From Spiroplasma chinense (GTDB lineage Bacteria > Bacillota_I > Bacilli_A > Mycoplasmatales > Mycoplasmataceae), in NCBI RefSeq assembly GCF_008086545.1, contig NZ_CP043026.1:124001-188000 (forward strand): a DNA stretch of 64,000 nt, in the 5' to 3' direction. Positions 13,717-59,181 of this stretch are shown piece by piece (the stretch's first letter is position 1; each line of letters opens with the position of its first letter). The notes under the pieces were generated by a model. The model was not told where the DNA came from. It saw only the letters and a list, made by a program, of their open reading frames with translations, and searched no databases. Made by a program: the position numbers and the translations under genes.

Positions 13717-13744
13717 TTGTAATTTGAGTGAATTGAAATATAAT
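13717..13744 (+). promoter_or_regulatory. Promoter of the BMP transporter operon
   Basis: TTGTAA (13717-13722), 16-base spacer, TATAAT (13739-13744). Transcription would start near 13751, about 20 bases before the riboswitch. Confidence 0.6.
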
Positions 13745-13767
13745 TAAGTTGTATTTAAATAGAAGTA

Positions 13768-13832
13768 AGTTCATATAAGTTGACATAACGGGTCAGCGTC
13801 TCTACACCAGACCTATCTGGTTGCTATGAAAC
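13768..13832 (+). promoter_or_regulatory. Purine-type (guanine-like) riboswitch aptamer
   Basis: The stretch fits the purine riboswitch core. P1 is GTTCATA with TATGAAAC. J1/2 contains ATATAA. P2 is GTTGAC / GTCAGC closing loop ATAACGG. J2/3 is GTCTCTAC. P3 is ACCAGA / TCTGGT closing loop CCTA, and J3/1 is GCTATG. GG at the end of L2 and CC in L3 can make the loop-loop contact. The C in GCTATG is the specificity base of guanine (not adenine) riboswitches. Short L3 resembles the Mesoplasma florum 2'-deoxyguanosine variants. U in CTAC of J2/3 favours guanine. The operon downstream is a purine/nucleoside-type importer. Confidence 0.82.
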
Positions 13833-13833
13833 A

Positions 13834-13889
13834 AGGAGGAATTTGGATAATTAAAAAGCAATTTTAATTTTCTGATTTCTCTTTTTTTT
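13834..13889 (+). terminator. Riboswitch expression platform (terminator)
   Basis: Right after P1, AAGGAGGAATTTGGAT-AATTAAAA can pair with TTTTAATT and the following pyrimidine-rich stretch to give a long imperfect stem with an 8-bp perfect tip, ending in eight T residues. It fits an intrinsic terminator controlled by the aptamer. An AAGGAGG sequence buried here is not followed by a useful start codon. Confidence 0.6.
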
Positions 13890-13980
13890 ATAAAATAGCT
13901 TTAATTGTTGAGCTTGCTATTTATCTACACTAAGAATGATACGTTTAAAAAGAAAGTTTAATACGGAGGAAAAATAATAT

Positions 13981-15321
13981 ATGAAAAAATTATTATCTGG
14001 CCTAATGGCTGTAGCAATAGTTGGATCAAGTGCTGCAAGTGTTGTTGCTTGTGGTAAAGGATTAGACACTAGTAAAATTACAGGAGAAAAAATTTGATTA
14101 GTAACAGATACTGGTAAAGTTGACGATAAATCATTTAACCAATCAGGGTTTGATGGCGGAAATTACTTTATCAATAACATTCACAACCCAAACGGAACTG
14201 ATAAAACAATTGGTAAAACTGAACCAGATGACCTAAGTGATTTACAAGCAGCATATGAAAATGCTAAATTTGATGGTGCTGGAACATTAATCTTACCAGG
14301 ATTCCACCATGCACTTGAAGGTGAAAACAAAGCTGCTAGAGTAATGAATGGTGGAACTACAATTCTACTTGACGGTGATGACGGCGGACAAGCAAACCAA
14401 ATTGGTATTATGTTTAGAGGGGATGTTTCAGGGTTCTACGCTGGATTATCTTCATTAATCCAATTATCAAACGATGCAACTTGAACTAAAAAAGAAGTTG
14501 TTATGTCAACATTCGGTGGAGTACATAATGCAGGAGCTGTTGATAACTTTATGGTTGGATATTTAGCTTCAATAGAAGTATTTAACAAAATTGTTGGTGA
14601 TGAAAAATTAAAAGAACAATTTAATGTTGGAGAAAACGTTACAAGTGCTAAAAGAGTAAGCACACAAGAAAACGGACCAGCAACTGATCAAGAATCAACA
14701 TGATTCTCAGGTTCATTTGCAGCAGGAGATGGTAAAACTTTATCAGAATCTCATATAAATGCAGGAGCATCAATTATTATGCCAGTTGCAGGACCACAAA
14801 CTAAAGATACATTAGATGCTATTGGAGATAGAAAAGATGTATTTGTTGTTGGTGTTGATACAGACCAAGTAACTTCATACGGTACTGAAAAATTCTTAAC
14901 ATCTGCTGAAAAACCTTTAGTTGATGCAACAGTAATCTCATTAGGACACTCAAAACTTTATAATGGAAAAGAAGGAGTACAAGATAAAACTCTTGCATAT
15001 GCAAAAGATAAAGGTGCTTCATTCTCTACAGCGGGAACTGATGGAAAATTCTCAAGTTACGACATGGAAGCTAAAAAAGGTGAAACATGAGAAGGAAAAA
15101 CACTATGAATGGGTGGAAAAGCCTCAAATGGTGGAAAAAATAAAGTTACTGCAGAAACTTACAACAAAGTTTCAGAAATAATAACTCAAGCAATGTTAGA
15201 AGAAACATCAATAGATTTATTTGCAAAAATTGCTACTGACGCTTCAGCTAAAAACATTTTATCAAATGCAACAGTTAAAGCTTATGCAGACAAAATTATT
15301 GCAGATTTAAATAAAGAATAA
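13981..15321 (+). CDS. BMP-family substrate-binding lipoprotein
   Basis: 446 residues. Signal peptide with lipobox ASVVAC; Cys24 is the lipidated residue. The mature part has the BMP/Med/PnrA features IWLVTDTGKVDDKSFNQSG near the N-terminus, GTLILPGFHHA and FVVGVDTDQ. This family binds purine nucleosides in several bacteria. It begins the operon with the ATPase (15413) and the permeases (16939, 19106). GGAGGAAAAATAAT is the ribosome site. The guanine-type riboswitch upstream supports a purine or nucleoside ligand. Confidence 0.9.
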
Positions 15322-15364
15322 TTTTATAAAATCAAATACTTTTGCAAGACAAAAGAAAAATGCG

Positions 15365-15394
15365 AAGTGATATTTTTATAAAATATCACTTTTT
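15365..15394 (+). terminator. Intra-operon hairpin, partial terminator
   Basis: A perfect 12-bp stem (AAGTGATATTTT / AAAATATCACTT) with three-base loop and a short T run lies between the lipoprotein and ATPase genes. It would lower expression of the membrane components relative to the binding protein. Confidence 0.65.
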
Positions 15395-15412
15395 ATATAA
15401 GGAGAAAAAACA

Positions 15413-16939
15413 GTGAACGACAATATTATTGAAATGAAAGATATTTTAATGATTTTTAACAAAAAAATCGTTGCAAATGATAATGTCAATTTTTCTGTAA
15501 AAAAAGGAGAAATACATGCCTTGATGGGTGAAAACGGAGCTGGAAAATCTACTTTGATGTCAATTTTGTTTGGTATTTATAACCCAACAAAAGGGACAAT
15601 AAAAATTAGAGGTAAAGAAGAAGTTGTCACTAGTCCAATTAAAGCAAACAAGCTAGGAATAGGTATGGTTCATCAACACTTTAAAATGGTGGACATCTTC
15701 CCGTTATGAAGAAATATTTCCCTAGGTTCAGAAGAAACAATATCAAAAACAGTAATTAATTCAAAAAAAATTAAAGCTGATATTACTGAAATAATGGAAA
15801 AATATAATCTTAGTGTAGATTTAGACATAAAAGCAGAAAATGCTTCGGTTGGTATGAAACAAAGAGCTGAAATCTTAAAAGTTTTATACCAAGGAAATGA
15901 AATTCTTGTGTTTGATGAACCCACAGCGGTTCTAACTCCTCAAGAAATTGATGGTTTTTTAGAAGTTTTATTGGAACTTCAAAAAAATGGTAAAACTATA
16001 ATACTAATTACTCACAAAATGAATGAAATCAAGAAAGTTGCAAACTCAGCAACTGTATTGAGACTTGGAAAGTCAATTGGAACTTATGATGTTAAAACAT
16101 CTTCAATTGAAGAACTTTCAGAAGCTATGGTGGGAAGAAAACTTGTTGAAATTAAAAATGAACACAGTGATCCTAAGGGAGATAATTTCTTAGAATTAAA
16201 AAATATATATGCTAACAAACAAGGATTTAAGAAGATAAATGCTTTGGATAATGTTAGTTTAGGTGTAAAAAAAGGTGAAATTGTTGCAATTGCTGGAGTT
16301 GAAGGTAATGGACAATTAGAACTTGCAAACATAATTTCTGGTATGTCTTCTCCAAATAGTGGTGAAGTTATTATCGATGGAAAAGACATTACAAAAGCAA
16401 ATGTTTCACAAAGATTTGTGAAATATAAAATGTCACATATTCCAGAAGATAGACATAAACATGGTCTAGCTTTAGATTGAAACTTAATAAATAATGGAGC
16501 ATTTGAAGATATTGCAACTCCAAAATTCTCAAGAAAAGGTATTTTGAGAAGAGGGAAAATGCAACAATATGCTCAAGATATTATTGACAAATATGATGTA
16601 CGTAATGCTGACTTTGGTTTTGCTATTGCAAGACAACTGTCAGGAGGAAACCAACAAAAAATGATAGTTGGTAGAGAATTTACAAGAGAAGCTGATTTCC
16701 ACTTGATTTTCCAACCTACTAGAGGGTTAGATGTTGGTTCAATTGAGTTTATTCACTCTCAAATTCTAAGATTAAAAAGTGAAGGAAAAGCTATATTGTT
16801 AATTTCTTATGAATTATCAGAAATTATGCAATTGGCTGACAGAATTATTGTTATAAATGCTGGCCATATTATTGGAGAAATACCTGGAAATAAAGCAGAA
16901 AGAAATCAAATCGGTAGAATGATGATGGGGGAAAAATAA
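15413..16939 (+). CDS. ABC transporter ATPase, two nucleotide-binding domains
   Basis: 508 residues in the fused double-ATPase layout of simple sugar and nucleoside importers. Domain 1 has Walker A GENGAGKST (about 41-49) and Walker B VFDEPTAVL. Its signature position reads ASVGMKQR instead of LSGGQ-like. Domain 2 has a degenerate Walker A (GVEGNGQLE) but an intact LSGGNQQK signature and a QPTRGLDVG Walker-B region, where DEP-type acid is replaced by Gln. So one composite active site is probably dead, typical of this subfamily. Start is GTG at 15413 after AAGGAGAAAAAA. It overlaps the permease start at 16939. Confidence 0.9.
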
Positions 16940-19119
16940 TGAACTTTAAATTAAAAAACTGAGTAAGACATATGAAAGTTAAAGCTCAATTAAAATCTCC
17001 AGAAATTAAAAAAACTGCTTCTTATTTCAAAACTAGTGTTATTTCAATATTAATTGGAACAGTATTGACAATGATCTTAATTTCTTTCCTTGGAGTTAAT
17101 CCGATAGATTTCTTCCAAAGAACGTTTAATGTTGTATTTACAAGAGAAATTAACCTACAAAGAACATTCTCTTGATTTGCGGTTTATGCATTATTTGCTT
17201 TAGGACTTGCAATTGGATTTAAAGTAGGTTTATTCAATATGTCAGGTTCTGGACAAGCAATTCTTTCAATGGGTGTAACTGGATTGATGTTAGTTAATGT
17301 GTTTGGAAATGTTCAAGGACAAATAAACAGAGGGAACCCAGGGTTTATAATTGTTATTTTAATAGTTATGGTTCTGGTTTCAATGTTGCTTTCTTCAATT
17401 ACTGGAATACTTAAAGTGTTCTTCAATATCCATGAAGTTGCAACTTCAATTCTATTGAACTGAACAGTATGATACATAATGAAATGAGCATTTGCTCTTA
17501 AAGGTTTCAACTCATCAACTCCTAGAATTCCTTTGGATTGAATTGCGGTTGGTGGAATTAGTTGGTTAATTCCAGTTATTCTTACAGTAATTGTATTTAT
17601 TGTGGCTTGATTTGTTTTAACATTTACAACTTTAGGATATAAATTTAAACTTGTAGGTGTTCAAAAAGATGCTGCATCATACATTGGTGTAAACTACAAA
17701 AAATATATAATCAGTGCAACAGCAATACAAGGATTTTGTATTGGACTTGGTTCATTTGTATATTGGAGTGCAATTAGAGGAGGGTATGCATTAGGAAATG
17801 ATGTAATACCAACAATTGGATTTGATGCAATTGCTATAAGTTTAATTGCATTTAACAATATATTTGGAATCTTACCAATATCATTCCTATGAGCTTTATT
17901 ATCAGTTGGAATGCCAGTTGCTGTAACTGGTTATAGTGAACTGGGAAGAGAAATATCACCATTGATCTTTGGTTTCATTGTTTACTCTTCAACATTCTCT
18001 TCACTATTCCTAAGATTTGTACCAATTAAATGGTCAAAAATTTGAATCCATTTATTCTACAATAAACCTTTACAATTAAAGGTTAAAGAATTGAAGGGTG
18101 AAATTTCAGGAATTAGAAAAGAAATTAAAAACATTAAAGCAAATAATTTTGAAGGTTTCAAAGAACTTGAAGTGTTGTTTACTAAATATCAAGAAGATAA
18201 AGAAAATCAAGAACTAAAAAAACAATTCTTAGAATTAAAACAAGAAAATATTGTAGTTCTTAAAAGAAGAATTAGTGTGATAAAAGACGAAATCGTTTAT
18301 CAACAAACTAAAGAATGTGAAAAATTCTACAACAGAGGGTTCTTATCAATTAAGAAAACTTATAACCAAAAAGCTTTAAGAAGAACTTGAGATTTATTAA
18401 ATCCAGCTGTAGCTGAACTTAACGTGATTCAAGAAGAAAAAATTCAAATTGATGCTGATTTTAAAAAATATAAAAAAGCAAAATTTGATGCTCTTAAAGA
18501 CTTTAAAAAAGAACAACATAGAAATTATGTTGAAAAATGTAGAAGACTAAAAAGCGATTATAAAATCGAAGTTTATACATTGGCTTTAGAACTAAAAGAA
18601 ATCAAAAAAAATCAACAAGATGAAGCTGCTATGGAAAAAATAAGATTACAAATCTTAAGTTTAAAAGAAAACTTAGCAACAAATCTAGAACAAGCAAAAA
18701 TTTCATATAATGATTCATTGGTTGTTAGCGAACAACAAATGAAAGAATTTGATAAAATTAATGCTGAAAATATGAAAATTAGAGAAGAAAAACTTGCAGC
18801 TCTTACAATTCAATTAGAAGAATGAAAAGAAAAAGATAAAAAAGTAAACGAAGTTTGATCAGAAATCGTTGCAAGGTTAAAAGAAAAAAACAAAGAGTTA
18901 TTATTAGAAAAAAAAGAAAAATACAATGCTGCAAAAACTGAGTTCAAAGATTTCATGACAGAGCAAAAAACTACTTTGGTTGCAAAAGCCTCTGAAATGC
19001 AAGTTTCTCAAACTGAGAAGAAAGAACTTTCAATGCAGGTTAAAAAATATAAAACAGATTATAGAGTTATGGGGTATAACAAATTTATAGAATTAGGTGA
19101 AAAATATGGATGTAAGTAG
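16939..19119 (+). CDS. ABC transporter permease with long coiled-coil tail
   Basis: 726 residues, about twice the usual size. Residues 1-375 are a normal BMP-type permease with about nine hydrophobic segments (FKVGLFNMSGSGQAI is characteristic). From about residue 379 to the end, the protein is Lys/Glu/Gln-rich with heptad-like spacing and almost no Pro or Gly, a long cytosolic coiled coil. The frame is unbroken and base composition does not change. ATG 16939 sits in the stop region of the ATPase gene; its own stop overlaps the next permease start by 14 bases. Confidence 0.88.
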
Positions 19120-20029
19120 TTTATTTCAATATACCGCTGAATTCTTTGTTATCATCTCTCTAGCAGCTTTAGCTGGAATGATAGCTGAAAGATCAGGGAT
19201 TGTAAATATTGCCATTGAAGGATTTATGACTTTGGGTGCATTAGCATTTGCAATCATCGGTAACCTATCAAGAACCCCATCTAATAATGGTATGCAAGTG
19301 CTTATATTTGTCGCAATCTTCGGATTGGGTATGATATTTTCATTAATGCATTCATTTGTAGCTATAAGGTTAAAATGTGACCAAATTATTTCTGGTACTG
19401 CTATAAACTTATTTATGCAAGGATTTGCATTGTTTATAGTAACTTCAGGAGTAGTTGGTGGAGATAAAAACTTTATCGAAGCAAAATTCCTAAATATATC
19501 ATTTGATAGCTCAAAAATATTTAGTGTATATCTTTTAATTACTATCATTATTACTGCAATATTAGGGTTCTATTTCACATTTACAAGAACAGGAAATAGA
19601 CACATTGCAGCAGGAGAAAATCCAAATGCATTAGATGCAGTTGGTATTTCTGTTAACAAATATCGTTATTTAGCAACAGCATTTTCTGGAGGGGTAGCTG
19701 CAATTGCAGGAGCATTCTTTGTAATTGTTATTAAAGCTTCAACTTTCTATGGAAGTGTTGATGGATTTGGGTTTATAGGACTTGCATTGATGATTATTGG
19801 TCAATGAAGAGTTAAATTCATCCCGCTATTCTCACTATTCTTTGCATTTATCTTTGCATTCGTAAGAATTGCAGGAGCAAGTGCTGGAATGCCAGACTTT
19901 ATTTCAAAACATAACGTTTTATTAAAAGCCTTACCATTTATACTTTCACTTGTTGCCATGGTTGCGATTTCTAAATGATCAAGACCACCAGCAGCTTCTG
20001 GAAAACATTTTGATAAGTCAAAACGTTAA
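19106..20029 (+). CDS. ABC transporter permease, second subunit
   Basis: 307 residues, polytopic, of the BMP/nucleoside-type permease family (ERSGIVNIAIEGFMTLGA, then GENPNALDAVGISV and FSGGVAAIAGAF). It pairs with the first permease to form the channel. ATG 19106 follows AGGTGA inside the preceding gene; GTG 19097 is also in frame but less well placed. The overlap suggests translational coupling. A terminator follows. Confidence 0.9.
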
Positions 20030-21575: not shown

Positions 21576-22292
21576 ATGACACCACATATTGAGGCAAAAA
21601 AAGAAGATATTGCAAAAGTAGTACTTATGCCAGGAGACCCGCTAAGAGCTAAGAAAATTGCAGAAACATATTTAGAGGATGTTAAACTTGTAAATGAAGT
21701 AAGAAACATGTTTATGTATACTGGAACTTACAAAGGCAAAAAAATAACTATTGCTGGTAGTGGAATGGGATGTCCAAGTATTGGAATCTATTCTTACGAA
21801 CTATTCAAATTCTATGATGTTGATAGCATTATTAGAATTGGAAGTGCAGGAAGTTATAAAGAAGGTATAAATGTTTACGACGTATATAACGTACAAGAAT
21901 GTTTTGGTGAAAGTGATTTTGCAAAATTGGCAGCAAATATCGATAAAAGAGTAATTCCTGCAAGTAAAGAATTATTTGATTTAATCGAAGAAACTGCAAA
22001 AGAAAAAAACATAACAACACATAAAGGAATAGCTCATTCATCTGATGTTTTCTACAGACACGAAAGTCATGATTCATTAGCTTTTGCAGCAAAAAATAAC
22101 TTAGATGTTGTTGAAATGGAATCATTTGCTTTATTTGCAAATGCCATTGCAACCAATAAACAAGCAGCTTGTTTATTGACAATTTCTGACAGCTTCATTA
22201 CAAAAGAAGTTACAAGTGCAGAAGAAAGACAAAACAAGTTCATGACAATGGTAGAACTTGCTTTGGAAACAGGCTTAAAAGTAGCAGGATAA
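21576..22292 (+). CDS. deoD: Purine nucleoside phosphorylase, DeoD type
   Basis: Splits purine (deoxy)nucleosides with phosphate to the base and (deoxy)ribose 1-phosphate. 238 residues, the usual size for the hexameric bacterial type. Conserved features: VLMPGDPLRAK, AGSGMGCPSIGIYSYEL, RIGSAGSY, then VVEMESFALFANA (nucleoside-binding) and LTISDSF with the general-acid Asp. Trp content is low and no TGA break occurs. ATG 21576 follows AAAGGAGATATAAAGT. Fits salvage of nucleosides taken up by the BMP transporter upstream. Confidence 0.95.
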   Translation: MTPHIEAKKEDIAKVVLMPGDPLRAKKIAETYLEDVKLVNEVRNMFMYTGTYKGKKITIAGSGMGCPSIGIYSYELFKFYDVDSIIRIGSAGSYKEGINVYDVYNVQECFGESDFAKLAANIDKRVIPASKELFDLIEETAKEKNITTHKGIAHSSDVFYRHESHDSLAFAAKNNLDVVEMESFALFANAIATNKQAACLLTISDSFITKEVTSAEERQNKFMTMVELALETGLKVAG

Positions 22293-55513: not shown

Positions 55514-55544
55514 AAAAGTTCTGAGTATTACTCAGAACTTTTTT
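55512..55544. terminator. Bidirectional terminator, gatB / nrdE
   Basis: AAAAAAGTTCTGAG and CTCAGAACTTTTTT form a 14-bp stem between the converging genes, with T or A runs on both sides. Its right end overlaps the nrdE stop. Confidence 0.88.
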
Positions 55545-57699
55545 ATATAACACAAGCTTCACAATCTAGGTTTTCACTATTTTCTAGAACCTCTTGACGG
55601 ATTCTTACGTAATAAATTGAAGCACATCCTTTTGAAAATGCTCTAATGTACGCTTTGTTTAAATCTCTAGTTGTTGCTGTATCTGTCATAAATAATGTTA
55701 ATGAAATTGCTTGATCAACATGTTGTTGAGCTGCAGCTACTATATCAATAATTGGATCTGGTCCAACTTCGTATGCACCTAAAGCATAGTAACCCATGTT
55801 ATCAAAATTAATTTTATAAGCTGGTACATAAATTCTTCCAAGCTTACCTTCTTTTCTCACTTCAACTGGTGAAACAACAGGTTGTAAACTTGGAGTACAA
55901 CTTGAAAGGTAACTTATTGAACCAGTTGGTGCAACTGCAAGTAAGTGTGAGTTTGCAAGACCAGTACTTTTAATTTCGTTTACTAATTCTATTCAATCAC
56001 TTCTTGTTGGTATGTTTACTTTATATTGTTCAAAAAGTTTTTTTACTTTATCAAGTTGTGGTGTTCATTTGTTTTCTTCACAGTTAGTATATTTTTCAAA
56101 GTAACTTCCATCTGCAAATTTAGATTCTTTAAAATTTTTAAACGTTCCAAATTTTTGTGATAATTTATTTGAAGCTTTAAATGAATGATAAGCCATTGTA
56201 TAAAAGAAAATATTTGTAAAGTCAATTGCTTCTTGTGAATTATAATAAATTTCATTTGTTGCTAAGAAACCGTGTAGGTTCATAGCACCAAGACCAACTG
56301 CGTGATTATTTTCATTTCCTTTTTTTATTGAAGGTGCACTTGAGATATTACTATTTCTTGAAACATGATCAAGAGATTTAATTGAATACTCAATTGCTTG
56401 TCCAAACTCTTCTCCAGCTTCCATCATTTTTGCAATGTTAACACTTCCTAAGTTACAACAAATATCTTCACCTGTTTTTGTGAAACTTAAGTCCTCATCA
56501 AATTCACTTGCTGTGCTAACTTGAACTATTTCGCTACACAAGTTACTCATAACTATTCTTCCAACGTTGCTGTGTGCATTTCTATTGTTAACAGTATCAT
56601 CAAATAATAAATATGGATAACCACTTTCAAAATGTAATTCAGCAATTGTTTGAAAAAGTTTTCTTGCACTTATAAAAGTTTTTTTAATATTTGGATTTGC
56701 TAAAAGATTTTCATATTCTTTAGTAATTGAAATATCAGATAAAGCTTTTTTGTATTCTCTTTGAACATCGTAAGGACTGAATAAAGCCATCTCTTTATTT
56801 TCTTTAGCTAGTTGGAAAGTAATATCGGGTACTACGATTCCTAAAGATAAAGATTTTATTCTTATTTTTTCATCAGCATTTTCTCTTTTGGTATCAAGGA
56901 AAGTCATAATGTCTGGGTGATGTGCATTTAAGTAAACAGCACCAGCTCCTTGTCGTTGTCCAAGTTGGTTTGCATATGAAAATGAGTCTTCTAAGATTTT
57001 CATAATAGGTACAACTCCAGTTGCTTGGTTTTGAATGTTTTTTATTGGAGCTCCAAACTCACGTATGTTAGTAAGAGAAAGAGCAACTCCTCCTCCACGT
57101 TTAGAAAGTTGAAGAGAAGTTGTTACAGCTCTTCCGATTGATTCCATGTTATCTTCAACCCTTAAAAGATAACAAGAAATATATTCTCCTCTTTGTTTTT
57201 TACCAGCATTTAAAAATGTTGGAGTTGCAGGTTGGAATCTACCAAGCATTATTTCTTTTAAAATATTTTTAGCTTCATTAAAATCTGATCCAGCTAAAAA
57301 CAATGCATTCATAATTGCTCTTTGTTCATAATCTTCTAAATAAAATTTATTATCAAAAGACTTTAAACCATACGCTGTATAAAATTTTAACGCACCCATA
57401 AAACTTGGTCATTGTCTTTTAAATGAATAAGCATAGTTTGTTAATTCTTCTATTTGTTGAATTGTGTATCTTTCGATAACTTCTTTTTCGTAGTATTGAT
57501 TTTCCACTAGGTAATCAATTCTTTCTTTAACAGAATTAAAAGTCATAGTGTTTGGTTTAATATGATTTTCTAAATATGAAATAGCTGCATCAATATCATA
57601 TTTAAAATTGTCACCACCTTTTTCTAACATTTTACTTTTTGCATTTAAAGCAATGTACTCATCACTTTCGTTACCAAAAAGTTTATTTGTTTTACTCAT
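55543..57699 (-). CDS. nrdE: Ribonucleotide reductase class I, alpha subunit
   Basis: Reduces ribonucleoside diphosphates to deoxy forms. 718 residues. [12 protein letters not shown]..., the N-terminal catalytic-chain region, [15 protein letters not shown] (redox Cys), [11 protein letters not shown] and the mobile C-terminal Cys pair in LDCEACVI, reduced by glutaredoxin/thioredoxin-like proteins. No N-terminal ATP-cone. Last in nrdF-nrdI-nrdE. Start ATG 57699 after a GAGGAGG-type site. Trps are mostly TGA. Confidence 0.95.
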
Positions 57700-57712
57700 T
57701 ATTTTTTCCTCC

Positions 57713-58159
57713 TCAAAAATTTTCTATTATTTCATTTAAAGTTTCTACATCATGTTTGGTTCCTAAAAGTTCAAACTGATATAGTAAAGGTACATTTAAT
57801 TTTTTTGAAATTATAGGACCTGCAATAGCAAAAGTGTCTCCAAAGTTTGTGTTACCTGAAGCCACAACACCTTTGCAATGATCTCTATTTTCTTTTTTGT
57901 TTAAAAAATTTATTACTTGTCTTGGAACGGCACCTTTAGTATCAGTACCACCCCCTGCATAAGTAGGGGTAATTAAAATGAAATCTCTATTAAGTTCGAT
58001 TTCTTCTTTTAAGTTAATTGGTATTCTACAATTATCTACTCCAAGTTTTTCTACAAAACGATGAGTGTTGTTTGAAAAGGAAGAAAAATATACAACATAT
58101 TTTTCTCCAGTCGGTTTTGAAAAATTTTCTTTTGAAACTAGCTTAACGTTATCGTGCAT
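57713..58159 (-). CDS. nrdI: Flavodoxin-like protein NrdI
   Basis: 148 residues. Binds FMN and supplies the oxidant for NrdF activation. Flavodoxin pattern YFSSFSNNTHRFVEKL, TPTYAGGGTDTKGAVPRQVINFL and GNTNFGDTFA. The start at ATG 58159 overlaps the nrdF stop (TAATG); an extended frame to 58171 has no ribosome site. In the VPK-type R2 systems this protein is needed to make the DOPA radical. Confidence 0.92.
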   Translation of the reverse strand: MHDNVKLVSKENFSKPTGEKYVVYFSSFSNNTHRFVEKLGVDNCRIPINLKEEIELNRDFILITPTYAGGGTDTKGAVPRQVINFLNKKENRDHCKGVVASGNTNFGDTFAIAGPIISKKLNVPLLYQFELLGTKHDVETLNEIIENF

Positions 58160-59181
58160 TAAAAGTCTCAATCCTCATCTTCAGTTTCTTCACTTACACC
58201 CATGATGTATGAAGAACCATTTCCTGAGAAAAAGTCATGATTCTCATCTGCTCTTGCAGATAATTGTGTAAATATTTCTGGTTCAATTCTAGTTTCTTCT
58301 TCACTGAAAGGTGAATCGTATCCCAAGTTTTGTAAAAACTTTCCTGCATTATATAAACTGAAGCGAATTGCATCTTCTGCAATATCAAATCCCTCATAAA
58401 GTTCATATAGATATTTTTTTTCTAAATCAATAAGTTTATAAAGTAAGTCAAAAACAAATTCTTTCATTTCAATTTGTTTTTCCTTTGAAAGTTTTTCAAC
58501 TTTTCTTTGGTATTTGTAACCACTGTAATAATTATGTATAACTTTATCTCTTAGAATTAATCTTATGATGTCTGAAGTGTTAGGCATTTTAGCTCTTGCA
58601 GATAAATAAAATGGTAAGTAGAAACCACCATATAATAAAAATCCTGGCATAAGTGCTGCTGCAACTTTTGATTTTAAAGGATCGTCTCCTTTGTAGTAAG
58701 GAATTAATATTTGTGCTCTTTCTTGTAAAGATTCAGAGTTAATTACTCACTCATGTGCTTCTTCTATTTGTTCGCTTGAACAAAGAGTTGAAAAAATTGT
58801 TCCATAACTTCTTGCATGAACTGCAACCATGAAAGCGAAGTTAGTGTAAATAACTTGTTCGTGATCTGTAAGTGAATGTTCAACTTGAGCTACATCCCCA
58901 ACAGTAGCTTGTATAGTATCTAGTAAAGTAAGTCCTGTAAAAGTACGTGTAATTAGTTGTTGTCATTTTTCATCTAATGTTTTTCAAGATGTAATATCAT
59001 TTGAAACGGGTATTTTTTCTGGTAGCCAAAAGTTTTGTACTACTCTATTTCAAACTTCTAAATCTTTTTCATCATTTAAAACATTTCAGTTTACTGAACG
59101 CATTTTGCCCTTGAAATTATTTTTTGCATATTCTATTGGTGAAACAGATTCTTTGTAATATTTATTGTCGTTTGTTGCCAT
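58159..59181 (-). CDS. nrdF: Ribonucleotide reductase R2, metal-free (VPK) type
   Basis: 340 residues. R2 fold with LTLLDTIQATVGD; C-terminus EDEDWDF docks to NrdE (Trp from TGA). Of the six metal-ligand positions, three are changed: Val119 in FMVAVHARSYG, Pro179 in LMPGFLLYGGFY and Lys213 in LRDKVIHNYY. Asp88, His122 and His216 are kept. Tyr126 is present. This is the VPK set of class Ie R2 proteins, which use a DOPA radical without metal, described in Mesoplasma florum and other Mollicutes. Start ATG 59181 after TAGGAGAAAAAACAATA. Confidence 0.96.

Follow-up and report, generated by a model that had tools for sequence, protein, structure and literature searches.

A probable guanine riboswitch with a short L3 loop upstream of a predicted nucleoside importer operon in Spiroplasma chinense

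Guanine riboswitches of the Purine family (Rfam RF00167) form a three-way junction with U22, U47, U51, and C74 in the pocket and G-C kissing nucleotides in loops L2 and L3, and they act as terminator-based OFF switches of purine-uptake genes. The aptamer described here has the same junction and nucleotides, a predicted switch of the same kind, and a target gene of the same kind; it differs in its L3, which has 4 nt instead of 7 nt. As Kim, Roth, and Breaker reportedly found in 2007, short-loop aptamers of Mesoplasma florum retain guanine or adenine binding; the present aptamer has similarly short loops, comes from a different genus, and keeps an unaltered guanine core. The 2'-deoxyguanosine riboswitch of M. 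florum (2'-dG-I; RF01510) resembles it in clade, in its short L2 and L3 (AUAANGG and CCNA), and in the P-A-T-H topology of the antiterminator. The pocket of the M. florum riboswitch is C22/A47/C51/G52, whereas U22/U47/U51/A52 is found here, and the gene downstream encodes ribonucleotide reductase rather than a BMP importer. In the M. florum riboswitch (dGsw), a P-T helix is the antiterminator, and the ligand holds P1, which leads to termination (PMC5838219, PMC12268651). Position 51 decides between nucleoside and base, being C in 2'-dG-I and 2'-dG-II and U in guanine riboswitches, and U51C alone converts a guanine riboswitch to dG (PMC8872408). The closest described proteins are the PnrA/BmpD/P48 nucleoside ABC importers, which likewise have a PnrA-like lipoprotein with 8/8 contact residues, a two-domain ATPase, and two permeases; overall identity to them is low, and permease 1 of the locus studied here has a long extra C-terminal part.

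We analyzed a 64,000-nucleotide stretch of the S. chinense genome (the window; NZ_CP043026.1, positions 124,001 to 188,000, forward strand), which belongs to the same family as Mesoplasma. We propose, with a probability of about 0.82, that it contains a guanine-sensing purine riboswitch serving as the transcriptional OFF switch of a BMP/PnrA-type nucleoside ABC importer. Pocket positions follow the numbering of the Bacillus subtilis xpt aptamer; as a check on this numbering, M. florum dGsw reads C22, A47, C51, and G52 in the same alignment. One element of our collection (G010:C1:625525) is identical over the aptamer to the published M. florum dGsw (sequence from PMC5838219). The RNA features are as follows.

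13717..13744, + strand: likely sigma-70 type promoter (TTGTAA, 16 nt, TATAAT; consensus scan)
13766..13772, + strand: predicted antiterminator strand P (UAAGUUC), overlapping the P1 5' strand and pairing with 13839-13845 (constrained folding)
13769..13831, + strand: purine (guanine-pocket) riboswitch aptamer, a three-way junction of P1, P2/L2, and P3/L3 (cmscan, R1 model, covariation)
13770-13775/13825-13830, + strand: P1; the flanking G13769 and A13831 do not pair
13779-13784/13792-13797, + strand: P2
13785-13791, + strand: L2, AUAACGG
13798-13805, + strand: J2/3, GUCUCUAC
13800..13803, + strand: J2/3 pocket nucleotides CUCU (positions 48-51), predicted to pair with GGAG at 13835-13838 in the antiterminator
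13806-13811/13816-13821, + strand: P3
13812-13815, + strand: L3, CCUA (4 nt)
13776, 13799, 13803, 13804, and 13824, + strand: pocket nucleotides U22, U47, U51, A52, and C74, read from the sequence
13833..13889, + strand: intrinsic terminator, with its stem at 13833-13884 and a U8 tract at 13882-13889 (folding)

An initial annotation had proposed that an aptamer and a directly downstream terminator in this leader fit a purine riboswitch with the guanine-type C in J3/1. Fold, coordinates, model score, and covariation all bore this out, and the C is C74 at 13824. Its further expectation of a Purine score above the Rfam gathering threshold strictly failed: RF00167 gave 35.3 bits against a gathering score of 37, 1.7 bits short, with a whole-genome E value still at 3e-4. 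RF01510 gave 40.3 bits against 51 (whole-genome E, 4e-7), and a scan of the window at Rfam gathering thresholds returned tmRNA only and not the aptamer. Such a cut-off is a curation threshold rather than a biological feature, and relatives with the same pocket pass that of RF00167. We gathered RF01510 or RF00167 matches from 60 genomes of the family, which yielded 162 elements; a covariance model (R1) was made from 23 guanine-pocket elements in a gap-free alignment (A3), all from other genomes, with that of the window left out. R1 scored the window aptamer at 62.1 bits (E, 4.7e-12 for the window and 1e-10 for the whole genome). In A3, 95.9% of cells were paired, two-sided changes occurred in 14 of 19 pairs, and the covariation score was 0.712, compared with 0.242 for shuffled and at most 0.150 for slid alignments. 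Only two places in the 1.37-Mb genome were found with the Rfam models, and again with R1; the second (C1:589375; L001/L005) lies 112 nt 5' of an NCS2 purine permease frame. A chance origin of the aptamer is excluded. Within the order, 55 of 62 matching genomes were from the family of the window's genome. A literature search on Spiroplasma guanine riboswitches found nothing relevant. The window aptamer is genuine and belongs, as an ordinary member, to a riboswitch family already known.

The core of the aptamer, set in a P1/P2/P3 junction with covarying stems, reads U22, A23, A24, U47, U51, A52, and C74, which is a canonical guanine pocket. A G-C kissing contact is predicted between GG at 13790-13791 in L2 and CC at 13812-13813 in L3, both invariant in A3, as is the A-U pair that closes the CCNA L3. 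The short L3 had been likened to that of the Mesoplasma 2'-dG variants, and the loop is indeed short; its use as a pointer to 2'-deoxyguanosine did not survive comparison with the family. There, a 4-nt CCNA L3 was found in most guanine-pocket (U51) and adenine-type (U74) elements. Short L3 loops are common to guanine, adenine, and dG pockets, long ones occurring mainly in the Citri-like genus g8 and in purE elements. Because the loop is a clade-wide trait, it is not diagnostic of 2'-dG sensing. Guanine riboswitches given dG-I-like loops lost affinity more than 50-fold (PMC8872408), so tight binding of guanine cannot be taken for granted in a guanine aptamer with short loops.

A switch of transcription is suggested by the sequences around the aptamer. 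The consensus scan found one promoter site against 2.8 expected by chance, which is weak alone; a TATAAT-like box with roughly this spacing to P1 is present in most g1 relatives, among those listed. The terminator hairpin at 13833-13884 was predicted to have a free energy of -14.2 kcal/mol. In transcripts ending before the terminator 3' arm, the ligand-free aptamer and the antiterminator were both at -16.3 kcal/mol. In the set of 101 elements that have terminators, alternative pairing to the terminator arm surpassed that in shuffled sequences (mean z, -1.8, with shuffles that kept base composition only). Because the antiterminator of the window aptamer alone was no better than shuffled (z, -0.26), the switching mechanism at this aptamer is a prediction from energy balance and from analogy with M. 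florum dGsw, whose P-T topology the predicted antiterminator shares.

The genes that follow, translated with genetic code 4, are laid out as an importer, with an ATPase and two permeases of the BPD_transp_2 family lined up in a single row of genes.

13981..15321, + strand: BMP/PnrA-family lipoprotein, nucleoside-binding subunit, 446 aa (PF02608, E 8.6e-9; lipobox C24)
15413..16939, + strand: ABC ATPase with two ATP-binding domains (PF00005, two stretches, E 2.4e-45)
16939..19119, + strand: permease 1, BPD_transp_2 (PF02653, E 2e-31, residues 75-328 of 726)
19097..20029, + strand: permease 2, BPD_transp_2 (PF02653, E 2e-32)
21576..22292, + strand: DeoD purine-nucleoside phosphorylase (TIGR00107, 262.6 bits, cut-off 232)

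The PF02608 match is above its cut-off and spans only part of the BMP lipoprotein, which also resembles the PnrA-like lipoprotein structures 6yab and 6y9u (E, 2e-6) and Treponema pallidum 2fqw. In Mycoplasma agalactiae P48, the nucleoside is contacted by D78, F81, N82, D166, F274, G299, D323, and K341 (PMC12892991). All eight contacts are kept in the BMP lipoprotein, as D49, F52, N53, D131, F246, G271, D293, and K311 in our own mapping by motif and spacing, and all eight are invariant across 12 aligned genomes. The proposal of a BMP-type importer of nucleosides thus stands as a prediction of transport, made from this homology and these residues. About 400 highly charged C-terminal residues extend permease 1 beyond its BPD_transp_2 domain. 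DeoD lies 1.5 kb beyond the permeases on the same strand and is a candidate operon member; we infer both the extent of the operon and the substrate of the importer. A BMP gene was present in 20 of 20 genomes of the window's genus and was led by a riboswitch in 14 of the 20.

The sequence itself shows the fold and its covariation, the pocket nucleotides, the terminator, the order of the genes, and the lipoprotein's family and contacts; we infer guanine as the ligand and OFF as the direction of switching. In the absence of guanine, the P1 5' strand (13766-13772) and J2/3 nucleotides 48-51 would pair with the terminator 5' arm, and RNA polymerase would read through. Guanine in the junction pocket would form a Watson-Crick pair with C74, with further contacts to U51 and U47, and P1 would be locked. 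The freed arm would then allow the terminator (13833-13889) to form, and the importer genes (13981-20029) would not be made. Imported purine nucleosides would be phosphorolysed by DeoD to bases including guanine, so that guanosine would supply the ligand of the switch and close a feedback loop. Nucleoside uptake in salvage-dependent wall-less bacteria would thereby have a clear regulatory logic. The initial annotation had the BMP operon shut off by guanine or deoxyguanosine; the OFF architecture and the guanine pocket favor the guanine part, and U51 speaks against the deoxyguanosine part.

A 2'-dG-I type riboswitch would account for RF01510 scoring above RF00167 on the window aptamer and for the agreement of L2 and L3 with the dG-I loops, and dG-I-like or C51 pockets do lie on BMP operons of other genera. 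The pocket itself reads otherwise: C51 (C58), the mark of a 2'-dG sensor, together with C22 and G52, defines the 2'-dG-I core, and the window has U13803, U13776, and A13804 at these places, with U22, U47, U51, and A52 in place of the C, A, C, and G of dGsw (PMC5838219). Because position 51 is U, the guanine reading stands and a deoxyguanosine sensor is very unlikely. Among the 45 elements of the window's genus, none carried C51; 44 were U51/A52, and the remaining one was low scoring and degenerate looking. Moreover, 14 RF01510 matches above the gathering score have the guanine pocket U51/A52 (L087 603-672, L092 298-367, L095 298-367, and 11 more), and no nrd genes were found beside these 14. 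Judged by such pockets, the Rfam name 2dG-I gives a wrong idea of what is bound in this clade, and a match to RF01510 does not fix the ligand. A search for a riboswitch upstream of the window's nrdF-nrdI-nrdE genes (55543-59181, - strand), where Mesoplasma and other genera have one before nrdF, found none. We consider it just as improbable that the ligand in vivo is hypoxanthine, xanthine, or a guanine/hypoxanthine pool. Canonical guanine pockets are tolerant, discriminating only about tenfold (PMC9295807), and nucleoside import would raise hypoxanthine too, via DeoD. Against this, the pocket shows no xanthine-II-like change, position 51 being U, and C74 argues against adenine. A guanine sensor thus remains our preferred reading, and a tempting misreading is corrected: in this clade, neither a short L3 nor an Rfam 2dG-I match means a deoxyguanosine sensor.

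A guanine aptamer could also be real and yet fail to control the operon effectively if a second promoter or a weak antiterminator bypassed the terminator. A TATAAT-AGC-like block and TTTACACA are conserved in the genus's BMP leaders between terminator and ribosome-binding site (13890-13934 in the window) and may represent a second promoter or an operator; the shuffling result for the window's own antiterminator points the same way. A hairpin proposed for this block was rejected, as it fits only two or three species. Visible selection on the aptamer pairs and pocket, the strength of the terminator, and its retention in most relatives leave such a bypass little chance. The chance that the importer has a substrate of another kind, such as a sugar or vitamin B6, is slimmer still. 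Among NCBIfam models, those nearest to the ATPase and permeases are named "putative B6 transporter," and ABC ATPases for B6 and sugars are the closest equivalogs, but all of these scores are far under cut-off. The lipoprotein retains every nucleoside contact and, in several genera, is linked to purine riboswitches with three different types of pocket. An effective guanine switch on a nucleoside importer therefore remains the reading we favor.

In the family census, 97 elements were U51/A52, 19 of them with the adenine-type U74. The first gene after these 97 was in most cases purine related, most often an NCS2 permease (33) or BMP (17), followed by hpt (8), guaA (7), purA (6), purE (5), and guaB (4). 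The U74 elements precede purA-purB, permease, and a few other genes, and those on purA-purB and NCS2 permease operons have short loops (L156, L157, L161, L163-L166, and others). C51 elements precede nrd, BMP, and lipoprotein genes. Natural short-loop guanine, adenine, and dG pockets before related genes offer a test bed for changes in RNA pocket specificity, and for the function of guanine aptamers whose kind of loop, when placed in guanine riboswitches, was reported to make guanine bind less well.

The most interesting by-product is the change of pocket on related BMP operons. Whether the riboswitch of one kind of importer has repeatedly changed its pocket in this family, with U22/U51/A52 in the window's genus, mostly C22/U51/G52 in Mesoplasma, and C51 in other genera, is in our view an even call. 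A tree built from 35 BMP proteins grouped those with G52 elements (mostly C22/U51/G52) in a single clade (98/97), which lay within the guanine-pocket proteins of the window's genus; C51/A52 elements were placed elsewhere, and three or more changes were needed. Because most Mesoplasma BMP elements keep U51 (CUGC), a change of ligand there is not certain. Three genomes (G001, G002, and G053) have adjacent BMP genes, one with a C51 switch and the other with a U51 switch.

L078, 5793-5856 and 4001-4062, - strand: tandem BMP switches, first C51, second U51
L099, 301-364 and 1951-2012: tandem BMP switches, first C51, second U51
L098, 301-362 and 7192-7253: tandem BMP switches, first C51, second U51

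Should these pockets differ in ligand, the duplicated binding proteins would be matched to different sensed purines.

Several other arrangements were observed in the family. Elements with the pocket U22/G24/A47 (mostly)/C51/A52 and a short L3 occur in genera g2, g10, g11, and g12 (L082, L105, L083, L063, and others); they precede nrdF, BMP, DHH, and solute-binding-protein genes and score as RF01510, with a core unlike that of M. florum. In Mesoplasma (L036, L041, and L053), consecutive dG-type riboswitches each precede a lipoprotein gene beside an SBP_bac_8 ABC transporter; one lipoprotein in this type of cluster is an Endonuclease I lipoprotein, and the whole has the appearance of a regulated cluster for scavenging nucleic acids. 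Phosphonate-binding-like (P37-type) lipoprotein/ATPase/permease operons lie under guanine- or dG-type riboswitches at L114, L140, L109, L060, and L167, hinting at a purine-related substrate.
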